This document shows positions 5,131-60,200 of a stretch of 64,000 nucleotides of DNA, in pieces. Position numbers and translations under genes: made by a program. Positions within the stretch are counted from its first letter, which is position 1, and the number at the start of each line of letters is the position of its first letter. The stretch is taken from contig CM055899.1 in NCBI GenBank assembly GCA_029582155.1, forward strand, positions 77,254,574 to 77,318,573. The letters run 5' to 3'. The stretch comes from Panopea generosa (lineage: Eukaryota > Mollusca > Bivalvia > Adapedonta > Hiatellidae). A model generated the notes under the pieces. The model worked only from the letters and a program-made list of their open reading frames with translations. It did no database searches and was not told where the DNA came from.

Positions 5131-5984
5131 AGATTTTGAGCATCATGAGATGTATTTTTTATTGACTTTATGTTTTTTTTATTTCTATCAAATGATTTCA
5201 TTATGCAATAAACCATTAAACTATCTATTTTTTTTTATTTTCAGATGAAGGTAATTATGCTAAAAAGCAAAAAACTGTTGACGAGGAAAGAACAAACAAC
5301 AAACAACATATTAAATCTGAACACAAAGAAGATCACGACCACAGCGCAGACCACGAACACATTACCGATTCACAAAATGAAATACCCGATCAGGATTTGA
5401 ATCAATGTCAGTCATTGAGTAAAACAGGGTCTTCAAACGGCCTGCAGCTCCCTCTATCGAAGGCTAAAAGTCCACCATTGCCGGCGACACAGAATTCTAA
5501 CCCTAATGCGTGTTCATATAGCAGTTCGCTATCAAGCAGCTCCTTACAAAAGAACTACTCAACTTCCTGCATGGGTGGATTGGGTGGTGGGGTAAGCAAC
5601 GAGCCCCAGGGATACTACCCACACCACTCTCCAGTCAACAGAAATAACGCGTCGTCGTTTCTGCCAGTTTCAACAACACCGTCGTTGTTACAACCACAGT
5701 CGATCGTGTCGTCTAGTCTAAGTCTACATTCCCTGTCATCAATGAATCAAATGCAACAATGTCGCCTATCTGGTACATCAATTTCAAATTCAGATTGTGC
5801 TATGAGACAAGCATCTCATTTATCATCTACCTCGAACTATGGGCTCAGAACATCGCCAATCCCACAGCATCCTTCACTACCGTCATGTACTTACATGCAG
5901 TCCTCACAAGGGGCAGCATACCCTACACACTTAACGCCGAATGTTCATTCGATGAATATGAATTTCCCTGGACCTATGGCGTAA
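732..5984 (+). CDS. T-box transcription factor, 3' four exons (5' partial)
   Basis: Sequence-specific nuclear DNA-binding transcription factor of the T-box family. The coding exons are 732-878, 2023-2090 (alternative end 2099), 2498-2556 and 5245-5984, all with AG/GT borders and matching phases; together they give 337 residues plus stop (340 with the longer exon 2). The first two exons carry the C-terminal half of the T-box, with the hallmark motifs [21 protein letters not shown] and [17 protein letters not shown]. After the domain come a basic stretch (KRPAED, KKQK; possible nuclear signal), an acidic/His-rich segment and a long Ser/Asn/Gln-rich tail ending in GPMA, as in T-box activation/repression tails. 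The N-terminal half of the T-box and the start codon lie upstream of the window. The HIVQAND and RWTSF..Y.FEET segments look like the Tbx6/16 and Tbx2/3 classes and unlike Brachyury (LNSLHKYEPR, then NPFAKAFLD); I cannot settle the class, so no symbol is given. Confidence 0.93.
879..2022 (+). other. T-box intron (1.1 kb)
   Basis: AT-rich intron between exons A and B, GT-AG. I see no repeats or exons in it. Confidence 0.85.
2023..2090 (+). CDS. T-box gene exon B (end of T-box)
   Basis: Encodes [23 protein letters not shown] (the last Arg is split across the junction), the conserved C-terminal end of the T-box. The acceptor is TTTTCAG. Two in-phase donors exist: CAG|GTGTGT after 2090 and GTT|GTAAGT after 2099. 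The longer form adds Cys-Val-Leu. The shorter form gives GRRDHRL, which fits the family better; the longer one has the stronger intronic consensus. Confidence 0.92.
2498..2556 (+). CDS. T-box gene exon C
   Basis: 59 nt between TTTACAG and AAG|GTAATT. It continues the frame with [19 protein letters not shown], a short basic-then-acidic linker just after the T-box. The first base completes a codon begun in exon B and the last base begins the Asp codon finished in exon D. Its small size and low conservation would make it easy to miss, but both phases fit. Confidence 0.85.
2877..3006. mobile_element. short inverted-repeat element (MITE-like)
   Basis: The left end (ATAGGCGTAGGAGCC) and the right end (GCCTCCTACGTCCAT) are imperfect inverted complements around a GC-rich centre with GGGGG and CCCCC runs. 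The block stands out from the AT-rich intron. There is no coding capacity. Confidence 0.55.
4432..4454. promoter_or_regulatory. candidate paired T-box half-sites
   Basis: AGGTGAA at 4432-4438 faces TTCACACCT at 4446-4454 with a 7-nt spacer. TTCACACCT is an exact T-box half-site (complement AGGTGTGAA), and the partner is the same word lacking TG. It sits in the CpG-richer part of the T-box gene's own large intron, so autoregulation is possible. TTCACACCT-like words also occur elsewhere by chance, so this is tentative. Confidence 0.3.
5081..5126. repeat. (CT)n microsatellite
   Basis: An interrupted CT dinucleotide run, about 120 nt upstream of the terminal exon acceptor. It creates a spurious Arg-Glu repeat ORF on the minus strand. 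Confidence 0.95.
5245..5984 (+). CDS. T-box gene terminal coding exon
   Basis: 740 nt from a T-rich acceptor ending TTTTCAG to a TAA at 5982-5984. It begins [14 protein letters not shown], passes a His/Asp/Glu-rich segment ([14 protein letters not shown]), and then runs through about 190 residues rich in Ser, Asn, Pro and Gln with SSLSSSSLQ-type clusters. Low-complexity tails of this kind usually carry transactivation or repression functions in T-box proteins. No stop interrupts the frame over 246 codons, against many stops in the flanking intron. Confidence 0.93.
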
Positions 5985-39152: not shown

Positions 39153-39260
39153 TTACGGTGGGGTGGATTCTGAAGCAGTTTTAGAACTACTCGCCTGCAG
39201 ACACGCCAGCAGGAATTCATCTACCTGTTCTCCGTCACACTCAGGATCAATATTGAACTC
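39153..39260 (-). CDS. unidentified gene, terminal exon
   Basis: Acceptor ATATTTGCAG|GAGTTC, then EFNIDPECDGEQVDEFLLAC, LQASSSKTASESTPP and TAA. Phase 0 fits exon 4 directly (SSNE|EFNID). Upstream, the same junction (TTTRCAG|GWGTTCAATATTGA) is repeated at 39338 and 39416, in frame. Linking this exon to exons 1-4 rests on strand, phase and order; there is no transcript. Confidence 0.7.
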   Translation of the reverse strand, partial: EFNIDPECDGEQVDEFLLACLQASSSKTASESTPP

Positions 39261-42200
39261 CTGCAAATATAAAATAGAACAGTTAATACTTAATGTCCAT
39301 ACTGAAAATGGTTCACACAAGGGGTCAATATTGAACACCTGTAAATATAAAATAGAACAGTTAATACAGAATGTCCATATTGAAAATGGTTCACATGAGA
39401 GATCAATATTGAACTCCTGCAAATATAAAACAGAACAATTCACACATGGGGTCAATAGTAAACTCTCACATAATATAAAACAGAATAGTTCACATATGGG
39501 ATCAATAGTAATCTCCCACATAATATAAAACAGAACAGTACACACATGGGGTCAATACTGAACTCCTGTAAATATAAAACAGAACAGTTCATGCATAGGG
39601 TCAATATTAAACTCCCACATGATATAAAACAGAACAGTACACACATGGGGTCAAAAGTAAACTCTAACATAATGTAAAACAGAACAGTACATACATGGGG
39701 TCAATACTGAACTCCTGTAAATATAAAACAGAACAGTTCACGCATATGGTCAATAGTAAACTCCCACATAATATAAAACAGAACAGTACACACATGGGGT
39801 CAATATTGAACTCCTGTAAATATAAAACAGAACAGTTCACACATGGGGTCAATAGTAAACTCTCACATAATATAAAACAGAACAGTACACACATGGGGTC
39901 AATATTGAACTCTCACATAATATAAAACAGAACAATACACAGACGGGGTCAATAGTAAACTCCCACATAATATAAAACAGAACAGTACACACATGGGGTC
40001 AATACTGAACTTCTGAAATATAAAACAGAACAGTTCACACATAGGGTCAATAGTAAACTCCCACATAATATAAAACAGAACAATTCACACAAGGGGTCAA
40101 TAGTAAACTCTCACATAATATAAAACAGAATAGTTCACATATGGGGTCAAAAGTAATCTCCCACATAATTTAAAACAGAACAGTACACACATGGGGTCAA
40201 TAGTAAATTCTCACATAATATAAAACAGAACAGTACACACATGGGGTCAATACTGAACTCCTGTAAATATAAAACAGAACAGTTCATGCATAGGGTCAAT
40301 ATAAAACTCCCACATAATATAAAACAGAACAGTACACACATGGGGTCACTGGTGAACTCTCACATAATATAAAACAGAACAGAACATACATGGGGTCAAT
40401 ACTGAACTCCTGTAAATATAAAACAGAACAGTACACACATGGGGTCAATATTGAACTCCTGTAAATATAAAATAGAACAGTACACACATAGGGTCAATAG
40501 TAAACTCCCAGAAAAATATAAACAGAACAGTACACACATGGGGTCAATACTGAACTCCTGTAAATTTTTTTTAGAACAGTTCATACTCTGGGTCAATACT
40601 TAACTCCCATATACTGTGATATCACCAATTTTTATTGATTTTGTTTGGAGCCTTTGAATGTAAAACATGGACCTACTTTACTTAGCTATATGTTATCAAA
40701 TAGCTTTTATACTGGTCTGGTTAGTTTGTAAAAAATAAAAATTAGAATTTAGATTTTTTCATTTAGTGCATTGATTAAGATAAAATTTGGTTAACTGTAT
40801 TAATATTCCATCACAAATTTTCATCACTGTGGAAAGTGCTAAAAATTGATTCATTGATTGAATATTTAGAATAATTTTTATGCCATCGAGGGCTAACAGA
40901 TGATTAGTTAACCTAACCACTGTTTCCTGGGATCCTGAACTAGTACTTGAGCACAGCCCATCTCCGCAAGTAACTTATAACTTTCCAAATTGAATTGGCG
41001 GTGATAGACGAATGATAATGAGATACAATGTGGTATATCAATCATCACTGAGACAATTGCCAGGGATTCAAACTCATGACCCCTGGATTAACAGTCAGAC
41101 GAGTAACAGACTGAGCTAATGGGGCCCGGCATGTAAAAATAAACCTAGAAGAGTATGTTCATTACAATAGTATACAACATATTTTACACCGTAGTGCAAA
41201 TTATTTTTCCAGTATTTGTTCGAGTAGGTAATTTGTAAAAGAAAAAAGTATGCATGAATAGCCTAATTATTTTTCTTTCTATCTACAAGGAATAAATATT
41301 TGTAACGAGTGTATCTGCATTAATCTCAACCTATTTACAGTACACATTTTACATCTCAACATCTCAAATGTTGTTGTCAAAACAGTTTAATTAACTTGTA
41401 AAACCTAAGTGCCAACTAACTGACATCTCCCCAGGATAACCCCAGGTTGCCAAGCGCATTTATGATCGCGTCTGAAGGTGTACTGTCAGTGGACTTAATA
41501 GTATTACAAATCAGTAATTCAAACACATTAAGTAATAGGGATTTAAAGAGCCAAAAGTTCACACTATAACAATTTTTTTATGGACCCCAGCTTTACCCTT
41601 GTGATAACTGCTATATTTTCCAACATTCTATTTTTAAAGAGAATATTAATGACAGTTAAGATAGATACTAACATTTCCTTTCCAAGTGCTTAAAAAAATT
41701 GTAAATGAAGGCAGCAGAAATAAAATAATAATCACATCAAAGTTGATACATATTCAACTTAACCTTGGTTCTCCCCCAAATTATCATCAATCGGGAATCA
41801 AAAACTGTCACATAAGTCGTGGCAAACAGACCCAGAGTCTACAGCTTCATCAACATTAGCGGAGTTGCGAGCCACCTTCACATATAAAACTTTTCAAATT
41901 CATATATCCTATATTAATTGCCGCCATTTCAACGACAAAATGAGGCAGAATGGAGCAAAATGAAGCTGTAACTAAGTGGAAGCTAACTACCGATTTATCT
42001 TATATCTCCCTCGGCGCAGATTTACGAAGCTCCGTAATACGGAGAACATTAGCACTGCATTTAGACGTGTGAAAGTGTTTCCCAAACCCAGCCTGCCATA
42101 TGTCAATTAATTTTACACGTACTTTCTCTGCAACCTTGTGGCTTTTAGATGGTGTCTCCAGGGAATTGGTGATTTTCATAGATAGCTTTCGACTAATGTA

Positions 42201-51200: not shown

Positions 51201-54200
51201 ATGAGTCACGTGATTTCATTTTGATTTCAATTTGATCTGTCATATTGTAGAAAATGTTTCTTCTTAGAAAGATTCTGAATGATGATGTGAAAGTAGCTTT
51301 GTATGAAGTATAAAATACAGCGAAACTTTATTGGCTCAAACCCGATGAGACTGGACAAAATATTACAAGTTAAGGGTTGTTCGAGCCTAGTATTGTTCAG
51401 CATCATCCCATACATATATATGTACATGTATATACATTGAAATAAGAAGGTCATTACCAGATTAGTGGTTCTAGCTATATGTGGTGTTCCAGCCATCTGT
51501 GTTAAAGCCAACAAAGTTCTACTGTAATTATTTTTCTTTTAATATAGAAAGGAAGAGAGATGAGGGAGAGTGGGAGAGATTGGGGATTGAGTTAAACATG
51601 AACTCAAGTTTACAAAAATATCATTTTTCATAAAATACAATGTTATTCATAATGAACTGATTGTGAATGCATACAGATTGGTTTTTCGTTTTAACTATTA
51701 CATTAAGTACTAGGCTATTTTTTAAATCTTTATTTTAATAAAGTTCATGCACCTTACAACAAAATCTAATTGTCACGCGGAGAAAGTGTGCTTGTGAACC
51801 TTCTCACCTGACAATGAGAGTAAATCTTCAACCAATGAACTTTTACAGTTTTAGTCTCATTTGTACTGTTATGTTGTTGTACTGTTATGTTGTTGTACTG
51901 TTATTGACGCTCTACCACTAGACCAGGCCGCCGTTTGTACTGTTATCAAACTCATTTGTAAGATTATATCCAAATTGTAATTCTGCAATACTTAAGAGAT
52001 TAATATTCCAACATCATTATTTTTTGTAGGTTGAAAGATTTCCATATGCGTAATGAGTAGTAAAATCAACTTCACATTGCTGAGTGTCCCTTTATATAAG
52101 AAAGATATATAAAAGTGAATTGTTTTTTGAGGACCATTATCCAATTCAATTCTTTATTACTGACTCAGGCCTCCAGCCCACACACATTACATATACAATA
52201 TAATCAAATCATTTACATATGATTTGGAATTTTAGTAACTATACATTACATTTAAATACATTCAAATACAAATCAAAGTATTCCTTTAAAAATAAAGAAC
52301 ATTGTATAGAATTTATACAGAAAATTTGATGCTAGAATGTTTAATTGTTCTGTAAATGCTGTTACACGAAATAAGCATTCAAAAACATTCAATTGCTTGG
52401 TGAATTAATTAAATACAGATAAATGTGTGTATTGGTAATTTTGGGGGTAGGATGATTTTATTTTTTTTTATTTTTTATTTATGAAAATAAAAAGGCTTGG
52501 GGGGTGGGGATGATAATCTAGCAATTAATTTATTATGGCCTACGGTTGGGAAAGGTGACTCACCTCATTACTGGATGTGAGGAGCTTTGCTATCATTTTA
52601 CGAACAGAAGCCAGCTTGGTAGTGGCTGCCTCCGCCTCTTGCTTCCTGAGAGATGCCTCGGTTTGGAAATTGTTCACAAGCTGAAGCAGAAAGTCCATAA
52701 AGCATTAGGAAATAATGTAAAGTCCGTAAAGCATTATGTAATAACATAAAGTCCATAAAGCATTAGGTTATAACATAAAGTCCATAAAGCATTAGGTAAT
52801 AACATAAAGTCTATAAAGCATTAGGTAATAACATAAAGTCCATAAAGCATTTGGTAATAATGTAAAGTCCAGAAAGCATAAGGTTATAACGTTAGGTATA
52901 TAAAGCATTAGGAAATAATGTTGAGTCCATAAAGCATTAGGTAATCATGTAAAGTCCATAAAACATTAGCAAATAATGTAAAGTCCACAAAGCATAAGGT
53001 AATAACATAAAGTCAATAAAACATTACGTAAAATCCATAAGGCATTAGGTAATAACGTAAAGTCCAGAAAGCATAAGGTAATAACATAAAGTCCATAAAG
53101 CATTAGGTAATAACATAAAGTCCATAAAGCATTAGATTATAACTTAAAGTCCAAAAAGCATTAGGTAATAACGTTAAGTCCATAAAGCATTAGTCCAGAA
53201 AGCATTAGTTAATAACGTAAAGTCCATAAAGCATTAGGTTATAACGTAAAGTCCAAAAAGCATTAGGTAATAACATTTAGTCCATAAAGCATTAAGTAAT
53301 AACGTAAAGTCCATAAAGCATTAGATTATAACTTAAAGTCCAAAAAGCATTAGGTAATAACGTTAAGTCCATAAAGCATTAGTCCAGAAAGCATAAGGTA
53401 ATAACGTAAAGTCCATAAAGCATTAGGTTATAACGTAAAGTCCAAAAAGCATTAGGTAATAACATTTAGTCCATAAAGCATTAAGTAATAACGTAAAGTC
53501 CACAAAGCATTAGGTAATTACATAAAGTCCATAAAACATTTTGTAAAGTCCATAAGATATTAGGTAATAACGTAAAGTCCATAAAGCATTAAGTTATAAC
53601 ATAAAGTCTAGAAAGCATTGGGTTATAACATTAAGTCTAGAAAGCATTGGGTAATAACGTAAAGTCCATAAAGCATTAGGTTATAACATAAAGTCTAGAA
53701 AGCATTGGGTAATAACCTTAAGTCCATAAAGCATTAGGTTATAACGTAAAGTCCAAAAAGCATTAGGTAATAATGTTAAGTCAATAAAGCATTAGGTAAT
53801 AACGTAAAGTCCAGAAAGCATTAGGTAATAATGTAAAGTCCATAAAGCATTAGGTAATAACATAAAGTCCATAAAGCATTAGGTAATAACATGAAGTCCA
53901 GAAAGCATTAGGTGATAACGTTAAGACCATAAAGCATTAGGTAATAACGTAAAGTCCATAAAGCATTAGGTAATAACATGAAGTCCAGAAAGCATTAGGT
54001 TATAACTGAGTCCATAAAGCATTAGGTAATAACGTAGAGTCCATAAAGCATTAGGTAATAACGTGAAGTCCATAAAGCATTAGGTAATAACGTTAAGTCC
54101 ATAAAGCATTAGGTAATAACATGAAGTCCATAAAGCATAAGGTAATAACATGAAGTCCATAAAGCATTAGGTAATAACGTTAAGTCCATAAAGCATTAGG

Positions 54201-57200
54201 TAATAACATGAAGTCCATAAAGCATCAGGTAATAACGTGAAGTCCAGAAAGCATTAGGTAATAACGTGAAGTCCATAAAGCATTAGGTAATAACGTTAAG
54301 TCCATAAAGCATTAGTCCAGAAAGCATTAGGTAATAACGTAAAGTCCATAAAGCATTAGGTTATAACGTAAAGTCCACAAAGCATTAGGTAATAACGTAG
54401 AGTCCATAAAGCATTAGAAAATAATGTAAAAACCACAAAGCATTACGTAATAACGTAAAGCATGTGCTGGCATTTGTAATAAGTTGCTTACAAACGAAAC
54501 ACCAGTTATATCAACCTATGTGATATAAGAATTTCAAATTTTGCAAATTTTTTTTATACTTTATCCACTGTAATCAGGTACACCAAAGCATCTTGGTTGC
54601 AATAGGCTCTACATATATTTGAAATGTAAATTCTAAAAAACACTGGAGTATTGCAAACATAACACAAGTCACCTTCTGGTTTGCAACCACAATTTTTATT
54701 AGAATGAAATTGTAATAAAATGACCTGCATTATCTCATCATTGCCCTTTATTCACAAATGCAGCTTGGATACTTTTTTACGTTACAAAAATAAAGAAAAA
54801 AAAGGGTCCAGGTTGTATCTGTAATTATCTTGTCATAGCAACCACAATTTTTGTTTGACTGAACATACAAAATGACCTGCATCACATCTTTATTGCCCTT
54901 AAACAACATGCAATGTTTCACAAACCCAGCTTTAATATTTTTTTAGTAAGGCCATAATGAATTAATTGCTAGATTATCACCGCTGCTCCCTAAATTTCAT
55001 GCTGTGACCCTTTGTATAAAAAAAAAATAAATAAATAAAAAAAAAAATAAAATAAAATTCCATCCCACTTCCACCTTTTTAAAAAAAAATTGGATGATAA
55101 TCTAGCAATTAATTTATTAAGGCCTAATCTTTCTGGACTGACGGACGCCAAACAGATGGAGGGTAAACCTATAGTCCCCATAGGTGACACTGGTAGGGGA
55201 CTATCAAAAGACATCTTGCTTAACTGATTCTCAACTATCAGTTCTTTCCAAAAGGTTTTGCAATTTAAGCTTATGTGACAGTTTGAATCCCTGGGTGGGG
55301 CCAAATAACTGAGCAAACTAGATAGGGAGGGGACTGATGGAAACTTTAATGTTATACATGAACTGTTTTGTGAAATATAAAAGTTAAAACACCTGCAGTT
55401 TCAAGAAAATATTTTTAATTCTTATTATTAATAAGTTTAATGCCCATGGGTCAGACCAAACATGATCCTAGAGTCATGATTTCAGCAAACTTGTCTACCT
55501 GTATACAAAATATGAGATACCGGTAGCTAAATAATAGTATTTGTAGTTTCAAACTTATTTTTTTATAGTTTTCAAAACAAATGACCGTCGCTAAATATTC
55601 AATCAATCAAAACAAGAGCTTATATAGAAGTTTGAATCTCCAAGTTTGGGGCCCAACATGACACAAGGATCATGGGTTGAGCAAACTTGGTAGGGAGGAC
55701 ACAACGATTATTTAACAATCAGAAAGCTTAAAACATTTCATCGCATGTAAACTTATAAATTACCTAAACAGTTTTAATACATTACTGCAGAACAAAATCA
55801 ATTGCAACCATAGAAAATAGAACACACCTTTCTTAGACCCTTCTCATAATGGTCAAAGAAATCGTCCAATGGGAAACTGGAGAGTTCTTGTGTGGTCATG
55901 CCTGAGATCGAATCTTTGTCCATAACCCACTGGGGTGGCAGAAAATAACGTAAACATGTCCTGCAATACAACATCAAGATTAGTAAAAATGTCCCATTAT
56001 TTATAAAAGTAAACACTTGTTACAATACAATATCTCTTAAAGTGAGCACTTGTTACGATACAATACCTATAAAAGTGAGCATTTCTTACGATACAATATC
56101 TATAAAAGTGAGCACTTGTTATGATACAATATCTATAAAAGTGAGCACTTGTTATGATACAATATCTATAAAAGACAGCACTTGTTACGATACAATAGCC
56201 ATAAAAAAGAGCACTTAAGATACAATATCCATAAAAGTGAGCACTTCTTACTCTACAATATCCATAAAAGTGAGCACTTCTTATGCTACAATATCCATAG
56301 AAGTGAGCACTTCTTACGCTACAATATCCATAAAAGTGAGCACTTCTTACAATACAATATATATAAAAGTAAGCACTTCTTACAATACAATATCTATAAA
56401 AGTAAGCACTTCTTATAATACAATATCTATAAAAGTAAGCACTTCTTACATTGCAATATATATATAAAAGAAAGAACTTCTTACGATACAATATCTATAA
56501 AAGTGATCACCTCTTATGATACAATATCTATAAAAGTGATCACTTCTTACAATACAATATCTATAAAAGTAAGCACTTCTTACAATACAATATCTTTAAA
56601 AATGAACACTTCTTACAATACAATATCTATAAAAGTGAACACTTTTTATGATACAGAACAAAATTTGAGGTACACAGAAAGCCCTGTTTGCACATGAACT
56701 GCAAAGGAAGTCCATATGCAAACAAGGCTTTCTGTGTACTTCAACTTATGTTCTGTTGTCAAATTTTTTAATTAAATTAATGTCCCCAAAGTTGCCCAAC
56801 CTGCCTATTTCAATTTCAAGGTGTGAGGAAAAAACATTCTACAAGGAAAAATTGGAACAAACTTGAAACCATTCTATTGTCTTCTGTCCAAAATTTACTG
56901 TTTTCTAGAGAATTTGACTGGCCGGACTGATTTTAGCTGGCCTCTTGCCATTGGACCACTAAATGAGCCCAATTCCTAATACAAAATTCTATATATTTAT
57001 TGAAAAGATGACTTAAAAACATTATATTTCTGTTCTTGTTATTCTAATCTGATCAGGTGTGGTTTAAAAAGTATTTCTGAAATACAGACCTCTGATACAG
57101 CATTATTTTTAACTGTGTTTTCGGAAATATAAAAACGAAAGAAATAAAATCAAATTTATTAGATTTTTCACCTGTTATAGCACCCAACAGTTTCTGTTAT

Positions 57201-60200
57201 GTGAACACTTCTTAAACATTGGAAATAGATGGCAAAACATTGTTCGCCAGTACTTCATTGAAACCAACAGGCCTTCTGAGAAAAGAAAGTAATTCCTGGT
57301 CTCAGACTACGCACCTTAATTTTCCTGAACAACTACAATTTTCGTCACATTTGCGAAACTTGGATTCCATTATTTTGTCTATATTGTCTGCATTGCACAC
57401 GTGTGGGTGAAAGATGCGAAACCTGTTACACGAGACGGAGACATCAAACCTATTTCTGTCGCATTTCAGGAAAAATTGTGTGCATTATACTGTCTATATT
57501 AGAAGAGAAAGGGTGAAAAAACACGCGAATTTGTAACAAACGACGGAGACAGGAACAACACCCAGGACTGATGCAAGTTTTATTAATTTAATAAGATGAA
57601 TGTTTATGAAGTAGACTAATTGGTTTCTACTTCAAAACTTTCTGAATCGTCTACAAATTTGAAGATCACAGCTAGGGAAATGTTCTTCCTTAAAGAGCAC
57701 TACCTCTTCAGAAAATAACATTTAAATTGAAACAGTAATCTTTTTTTTATAAATTTTTGCAGATAAACAAGACACTGAAATATTACATGCAATACCTAAG
57801 TCCCCTTCTAGTATAATTTTGCTGCCATAGTAATCACAATTTTAGTCTGACTGATAATACAAAATGACAAGTTTCACAAAACTAGCTTGGATACTTTTCT
57901 AGTAATCTTTCTGAACGAACGACCAAACAGTAAACCTAAAGTTCCCACCAATGTAAAGGGACTAGTAATTGTGTATGTGAGTTGTATTTTTTTGCCGCAC
58001 CAGAATGTTCACTGATGAAAATACATGTATGTGTATACAAATCTAATGACCACAACTATGGAAAATTTAATGTTCTTTCTTAAGCCGTCCTTAAAAAAAT
58101 ATGTTGTTTGCCGTGCTCCTACTTATTCCCTCAAAATTGCAGCTTACCCAAACTTTTTTTATTGAATTTCTAAGCATTTCATTTTTCATGATTTATGTCC
58201 ATTTTTCTTTAAAATGACTGCAAAGTTAAAACTTTGCAAAAAAATAAAATTAGCTACCTTCCTACCAACATGAAAAATACTAGGTTGGAGTACAGCAAAC
58301 AAATATTTTTTTAAGGATGTCCTTAATAAGTCTACATCTACAGAACAAGAATATTTGTAGAAGCAATAGGTGTTCTAGGGGGTAAAACCACTGTCCTTCT
58401 GCAACTAACTGGCACACTTTCACATAAAGTTTTTAGAGCGAGCGTGACTCGAACCTACGACCTTAGTGGTGAGAGGTAAGTGATCTTGAGATGGCACCTT
58501 AGACAATTCGGCTATGGAGGAACTCTTCCAGCATTAATTATTAACAGTTTGTTATAAACAGTGATTCAATAAATGCTGCCAAATAAGGAAGACATTTGCA
58601 AACTTTGTTTTTAGCAAGTTTTAACGTAGACACCATTTTTTACATCTGCGTTACACGCCAATAGCTGTCAATTTTAGTTTTATTAAAACACTAAATATGT
58701 TTTTCTTTTCTATCAATCTATACATATCTAAGTGTATCAGATCTGTTGTTCACAAAATATGTGCTATATCACATTACAATGCAAATAATACCATTCAGTC
58801 AGAGACGGGCTGCATAATAGGTGTGAACAACCAACTTCAACTTTTTCAAGGTAAATTATCTTTCTAACACGGTTTGTGTTTATCGTGTTTTCATTTTGTG
58901 AACCCCTGCGATCCGTGTTAAAACAAGAACTGAGTGTATATCTTTTAAAGATATGCTCCAGACAAGCACAAATAACCAAAAAACAAAGTACAAAATGGAT
59001 GATAATTATGTCATTTATTCAAGATACAGTTATGGTTCTTTCACTGCAAGCCAACACATTACCCACATCATTCCATCTTCCAACTATTGTTGGCCTCCTA
59101 TCAGTACTTTTAGAGTAATGCTCCAGAAATAATTCTGGATGGACATACTGATGGATGAAGCAGCAACTATATGTGCTCTTTTAAAAGCCGACAAGAACAA
59201 AGGAATCTTCTTGTATTATTCTTAAAGTATGAAGTACAACACAACCAAATAACGATAAAACCTTCCGGTGGGTTAAGAACACATGTACTATGAAAACAAT
59301 GAACAAGCAAATTCAGTCAGTTTATGTCTCCTGCTTATTTCAAATGTTACTGCACAGAAACCCCCAGAAAAGATTATTCACAAATTAAAGGGGCATCACT
59401 GTAGAATAACAAATGCCACAACCCCTAAAATTAAACTGAGCCTGTTTTGTCATTATAAACATTGTATTAAAATTTCAAAAGATTTGATTCAGGCATTCTT
59501 AAGATATTGCATGGAAACCCCCAAAAATGTGATTTTTCACAAATTAAAGTGGCATAACTCTAGAATGACAGATGGCACAACCCCTAAAATCAAACTAAGT
59601 CTGTGTTTTGTCAATATAAATATTGTATTAAAATTTCAATATATTTAATTCAGGCATTCTTAAGTTATTGCATGAAATCCAAAGTGTGAATGATGGACAG
59701 ACAGACAAACAGACCCAAATTAATGTCTCCTGCTTTTTGCAAAGTGGGGGACAAATATTACTCACCTATATCCATTTGATATCTCCTCTATCATTTGCGC
59801 CTCCTGACCCGTACCCGTCGAAGATGACGGGGCCTCATTAGCTGGTTCTTGTGATGATGCAGATGTCGGGGATTGGGGACCAACACTGGGAGACGCCAAT
59901 TTCTTGTCACCCTAAAATTTAAAGAAAATATTTCTTTAAAAAAAAATCTGGTATTTTGTTTTATCATTCATAATTTAACTTGAGTAGATGAGGAAAATTC
60001 AAAGAATGGTACCATGCGTCAATTTAACTACCATTATCGGTGAAAACAGAATAATATAGTCTGCACCATTTCTAATTTTTGGCCCCCATGTGTGTGTGTA
60101 TGTGTGTGTGTGTGTGAAATTTTCAAAAGTAGTGCTACAAAAAGGCTTAGTACCACCATTGCAAACAGGAAATGCTTCCGTGGGGTAGTTGCATAATGGC

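Follow-up and report, generated by a model that had tools for sequence, protein, structure and literature searches.

Why should the last exon of a gene be preceded by a row of copies of its own 3' splice site, and does the spliceosome use them? The question is raised by a gene on the minus strand of the window, by which we mean the whole 64,000-nucleotide stretch that we analysed (C6:77254574-77318573, in a genome of 1.47 Gb, 39 contigs and 33% GC). A first-pass annotation of this DNA had pointed to three exactly repeated acceptors at the terminal exon and had read them as a tandem alternative 3' splice system born from junction duplication. The explanation that we favour, and consider quite likely on the sequence, is a junction-born minisatellite of the type called mirages in amphioxus, the decoy acceptors of which would mostly be spliced past, with some use of those at 39338 and 39416 being possible.

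The gene that carries the array is, as judged from homology and exon structure, MORC2. Its exon chain in the window, read on the minus strand, consists of 59766-59911 (GDKKLASPSV...NGY, the most upstream exon identified inside the window), 55828-55960 (TCLRYFLPPQW...GLRK, placed by the human MORC2 match and by phase), the penultimate exon 52564-52680 (LVNNFQTEAS...SSNE, phase 0 at both ends) and the terminal coding exon 39153-39260 (EFNIDPECDGEQVDEFLLACLQASSSKTASESTPP followed by the stop). All joins are phase-consistent, including the last, where the penultimate exon ends in phase 0 at SSNE/GTGAGT (here and below, the slash marks a splice junction) and the terminal exon begins in phase 0. This join replaced an early version of the C-terminal region that contained a spurious segment near 41416. 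The joined chain matches human MORC2 (E 2.3e-15, query residues 41-120), in a match that spans residues 30-123 of the 167-residue query, the terminal exon lying outside the matched part. Upstream on the same strand, the adjoining DNA encodes a Chromo_MORC2_6th domain (E 6.5e-20) and a Morc6_S5 domain (E 2.5e-9), and the chromo-like domain, the Morc6 S5 domain and the C-terminal region succeed one another in order along a single strand. When the 69 residues at the C-terminus were searched by themselves, they did not retrieve MORC2. The last 49 residues are collinear with human MORC2 997-1024 in a weak alignment (shuffle P 0.023), and the terminal exon aligned by itself does not reach significance (P 0.19). 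Since the human match misses it, the terminal exon rests on its phase, its frame, the weak collinear alignment and its presence in a second genome copy described below. The exon phases support 39260 as what would be its normal acceptor. Elsewhere in the window, the plus strand has a 254-codon open frame (5220-5981) that looks coding and abounds in Ser, Gln and Asn; a 246-residue part of it had no match in Pfam.

What precedes the terminal exon is a minisatellite of 3' splice-junction copies (39245-40579, minus strand), intronic in position, which TRF calls in two parts: 39245-39437 with a period of 78 and 39403-40558 with a period of 50. Cut at a common anchor, it comprises 26 units, namely the real junction, two units of 78 bp and 23 of 48-50 bp. 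The repeat unit consists of a pyrimidine tract, an AG and about 28 exon bases, roughly CTGTTCTRTTTTATATTTRCAG/GAGTTCARTATTGAYCC, and the junction from -40 to +40 aligns to the array with a score of 100, where the maximum among 500 shuffles is 45 (z 14.8). An intact AG followed by an exon-like start is found in 11 of the 26 units (the real acceptor and ten decoys), and the other 15 have no AG. The two 78-bp units, at 39283-39360 and 39361-39438 on the minus strand, are both decoys with an exon-like start, 39338 and 39416 respectively, that is in frame and open. The short units occupy 39439-40579 on the same strand; eight have an intact AG, with exon-like starts at 40557, 40458, 40409, 40260, 40012, 39813, 39714 and 39565, and in 15 it is absent (mostly ATTATGTGRGAGTT). 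At the distal end, a partial minus-strand unit without AG (40580-40608) resembles the exon start in 21 of 28 bases, as counted from the alignment. The three acceptors of the first-pass annotation, giving exon starts at 39260 (TTTGCAG/GAGTTC), 39338 (TTTACAG/GTGTTC) and 39416 (TTTGCAG/GAGTTC) with spacings of 78 and 78 bp, are therefore all real, but they represent only the proximal end of the array, the eight acceptor-bearing short units with starts from 39565 to 40557 having been overlooked. Nor are the copies exact: they are similar, and of the 28 bases that begin the exon, 39338 shares 21 and 39416 shares 24. At 41000-41160 there is a tRNA-like stretch (ATTAGCTCAGT...GGGGTCATGAGTTTGAATCCC), which we take to be a probable SINE; ARAGORN found no tRNA in the window.

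The identity of the repeat unit with the splice junction bears out the earlier proposal that the array was born from junction duplication, the direction from junction to array being moderately supported. Events would have taken the following order. First, the junction at the 3' end of the final MORC2 intron would have been duplicated in tandem. Second, the 48-50 bp form of the unit would have expanded, slippage or unequal exchange being the presumed means. The decoys would now be mostly bypassed, and a possible use of 39338 or 39416 would add 26 or 52 residues. In a tree of the units, those bearing an acceptor group together, and neither form is indicated as the older one. The opposite direction, in which a minisatellite already present in the intron acquired an AG and the acceptor slid into it, making the start of the exon a piece of former array, strikes us as improbable. 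It would fit the predominance of AG-less units among the short ones (15 of 23), the lack of an AG in the outermost partial unit and the inability of the tree to root the two unit forms; but an AG is present in the distal full unit (40557) and in both units adjoining the exon, and the protein end is collinear with the C-terminus of human MORC2 (P 0.023, although the exon alone gives P 0.19). It is because of this value for the exon alone, the unrooted unit forms and the AG-less outermost partial unit that we put the support for the direction no higher than moderate.

Whether the decoys are used is a separate matter, on which reading frames, splice signals and a second genome copy all bear. The frame was said to be open from 39416 to the stop at 39153, and it is in fact open already from 39551. 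The insertion of 26 (39338) or 52 (39416) extra codons by choice of an upstream acceptor likewise follows from the frame. Three of the ten decoys are in frame, and only 39416 and 39338 are open into the exon, the third (40409) running into a stop after 37 codons. From the eight distal decoys a stop is reached after 16-53 codons, and the protein would end early. An open stretch of 52 codons would arise by chance with P 0.04 if codons were independent; counting a single 26-codon unit that was duplicated brings the value to 0.20, and counting just the 17 codons of non-exon origin brings it to 0.35. The open frame is thus weak evidence of use, because its probability is 0.20-0.35 once duplication is allowed for.

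The splice signals differ little among the eleven acceptors. All have CAG. In ten, the tract is near-identical, with pyrimidines at 12 of its 16 positions; 40557 has seven. The real acceptor, with its tract and AG at 39261-39282 on the minus strand, has a branch-like TATTAAC 22 nt upstream; this motif (6/7 to TACTAAC) occurs at -22 only for 39260 and 39338, the other acceptors reaching 5/7. The best branch-like match of 39416 is TATTGAC at -35. The remaining acceptors offer TATTGAC at -35 (-34 for 40012), in a part of the preceding unit that derives from the exon, and 40557 additionally has TATGAAC at -22. Taken together, these signals would favour 39260 and 39338, and they exclude no acceptor. 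With ten near-equal tracts and CAG everywhere, the sequence does not forbid the use of decoys, and since ten of the eleven tracts are equal, it is only by inference that we regard the decoys as bypassed.

The terminal region has a second copy at C6:78016799, 723 kb away. A protein search for the C-terminal exons (9 candidates, 8 matches) pointed to two places with four matches each. The copy of the window region extends over C6:77977700-78087699 (loci L014-L024), and its array lengths are strongly different. Identity between the copies is 97.5-100% in the non-array stretches compared, gaps making up part of the loss, and the second copy may be either a duplication or a second haplotype. Its junction array has 27 units, 12 with AG, versus 26 and 11 here. 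The terminal exon is identical at 108 of 108 positions, which we had considered as a sign of constraint and dropped, as no change in 108 has P 0.32 at background divergence. The 26-residue insert of 39338 (39261-39338) shows no difference in 78 bases (P 0.44 at background divergence), and the extra unit of 39416 (39339-39416) shows three in 78, all amino-acid changing if read. Both decoys keep an open frame in the second copy. The branch-like motif of 39338 is TATTAAC here and TATTCAC there; the idea that it was destroyed in the second copy was given up, for the branch consensus of metazoans is loose enough to accommodate TATTCAC. These numbers are not decisive, neither showing nor excluding constraint on the inserts.

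Frames, signals and copies together allow the tandem alternative 3' splice system to be weighed, in which 39338, 39416 or both are substantially used and add 26 or 52 residues to the C-terminal part of MORC2. Both decoys have what such a system would need (intact tract and AG, matching phase and open frame), both remain open in the second copy, where the 39338 insert is unchanged. However, an open frame is expected by chance in 20-35% of cases for a duplicated unit, an unchanged 78 bp is close to an even chance at background divergence (the same 0.44), every one of the three differences in the outer unit changes an amino acid, and the second copy has a weaker branch-like motif at 39338. The unchanged insert does not argue against use of 39338. 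On balance we think substantial use unlikely, about as unlikely as an array that preceded the junction.

The terminal exon is not the only one in MORC2 with an array at its acceptor. A 29-bp array (52690-54460, minus strand) has its last unit ending 9 nt before acceptor 52680, and this unit supplies the branch-like CCTAATG of the penultimate acceptor. The array measures 1771 bp here and 422 bp as called in the second copy, where it also adjoins the acceptor. The stretch of branch-like units at 52682-54460 contains 8 AG on the minus strand versus about 60 predicted from base composition, a scarcity that is due to the unit sequence and which means that few AGs stand ahead of the real acceptor. 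A 33-bp array (55998-56655, minus strand) ends 37 nt upstream of acceptor 55960; its derivation from that junction was dropped, the resemblance being weak, with 12 of 500 shuffles as good.

Acceptors and donors were marked in the window and in 50 kb beyond it. For six of the eleven exons there is support from homology, or from a phase that fits a homologous exon; the other five, with starts at 88-99 kb in the extended coordinates, are putative, having been placed by splice motifs, an open frame and likeness between the copies; two more MORC2-like frames near 114 and 116 kb stand outside the acceptor counts. An array edge lies within 40 nt of 4 of the 11 acceptors (at 0, 9, 16 and 37 nt, the 16-nt case being putative) versus 1 of 10 donors, the random expectation being 4.9%. 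This proximity has P 0.0014, or 0.011 if the starting acceptor is excluded (3/10); for the supported exons the values are 0.0021 (3/6) and 0.022 (2/5), and a placement simulation in the window's four introns gives P 0.0001 for three of four, the starting one included. Eight acceptors have an array within 2 kb upstream and three have none. Among those with an array, 39260, 52680 and the putative 95164 and 89016 resemble their own arrays beyond all 500 shuffles, and 55960, 59911, 93668 and 101868 do not.

A control in the same genome used 40 of 47 chaperonin exon matches with flanks and a TRF threshold laxer than for MORC2; it is approximate, for core edges serve as a proxy for acceptors, certain stretches overlap one another and a match may in some cases start in mid-exon. 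TRF calls an array somewhere in the flanks of 7 of the 40 exons, and none reaches into the 40 nt that precede an exon core; those that come closest on the upstream side are a 17-bp array of 2.1 copies, ending 98 nt from the core, and a 171-bp array of 4.0 copies, ending 114 nt from it. Arrays at boundaries are therefore not routine in these genes, and the idea that they are a genome-wide feature is unsupported in the 40 matches. Fisher's test of 4/11 versus 0/40 gives P 0.0013 for two samples that differ in array density. Local alignments of chaperonin acceptor edges with their upstream flanks, made without shuffles, score 15-28. On the donor side, high scores were obtained for L048 (53) and L062 (55). 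L048 has 2.2 copies of a 183-bp repeat on that side, reaching from the final bases of the exon into the intron; L062 (C5:34074088) and L059 (C5:34074452) are adjacent similar chaperonin exons, possibly alternative ones.

Two broader readings draw on these arrays. The first is that 3' splice sites in MORC2 have repeatedly been birthplaces of minisatellites, with units supplying the branch site, the tract or the junction and with repeat number perhaps tuning splicing. Its basis is that several introns have an array edge within 40 nt of the acceptor and that array length changes fast, and we hold it to be an improbable generalisation. The second is that the decoys act as a regulatory sink, binding splicing factors so as to slow or retain the last intron, with repeat number tuning MORC2 output. 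The ten spare acceptors in 1.3 kb, nine with a tract equal to the real one, would suit such a role, but arrays are common at this locus, making up 29% of 114 kb, so that an array here needs no function, and we consider the sink very improbable. A junction-born minisatellite with decoys mostly spliced past is the reading that we retain.

Such arrays have a precedent. The parts of the amphioxus reports available to us describe mirages as minisatellite-like duplications of intron-exon boundaries with length instability, in Adh3, the globins BflGb6 and BflGb9, troponin C and PGBD5 (PMC3087553, PMC3902484), with AG/GT signals present in many units though not in all (PMC3087553). Data on Adh3 and RT-PCR of globins led their authors to regard regular splicing as undisturbed (PMC3087553, PMC3902484). 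As far as these sources go, the likeness lies in a tandem repeat of an intron-exon boundary, here tract, AG and about 28 exon bases, and in a splice signal kept in part of the units, here 11/26 and 12/27. Copy number differs between haplotypes in amphioxus and between two genome copies here (26 versus 27). The differences are the gene, MORC2, the number of units (26-27 as against 6 and 3 in the BflGb6 haplotypes), the further acceptors of the same gene that also adjoin arrays, and the genome, which by its size and 33% GC is probably not that of an amphioxus and, with its repeat tails also considered, may be a mollusc's. Two observations may bear on whether boundary units escape homogenisation: the pair beside the exon differs from the rest in length class, and the tree gives this pair and the outermost full unit longer branches. 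By its structural features the array is a mirage-type minisatellite. Intron gain or alternative introns have reportedly been traced to tandem arrays, by Zhuo et al. in 2007 and by Gao and Lynch in 2009. Internal tandem repeats at exon-intron boundaries are also described in human genes, in the part of that report available (PMC2812944). With both, so far as they are described there, our array shares repeats at splice junctions that create spare splice sites, but unlike in intron gain the copies sit within an existing intron. The available part of a report on an abalone TSSK1-like gene describes an intronic minisatellite and does not mention boundary duplication (PMC6905558), and in the portions of papers that our literature search returned, boundary minisatellites were noticed only in those on amphioxus and human.

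Boundary duplication being already known from lancelets, the array is a new example and not a new mechanism. It is a large and clean duplication of a splice junction, with units that keep the AG and units that lack it side by side and with a near-identical second copy, and it probably comes from outside the lancelets, the group from which arrays of this kind were described. As such, it may serve as a model for how the spliceosome chooses among eleven similar acceptors and for whether minisatellites tend to begin at 3' splice sites.
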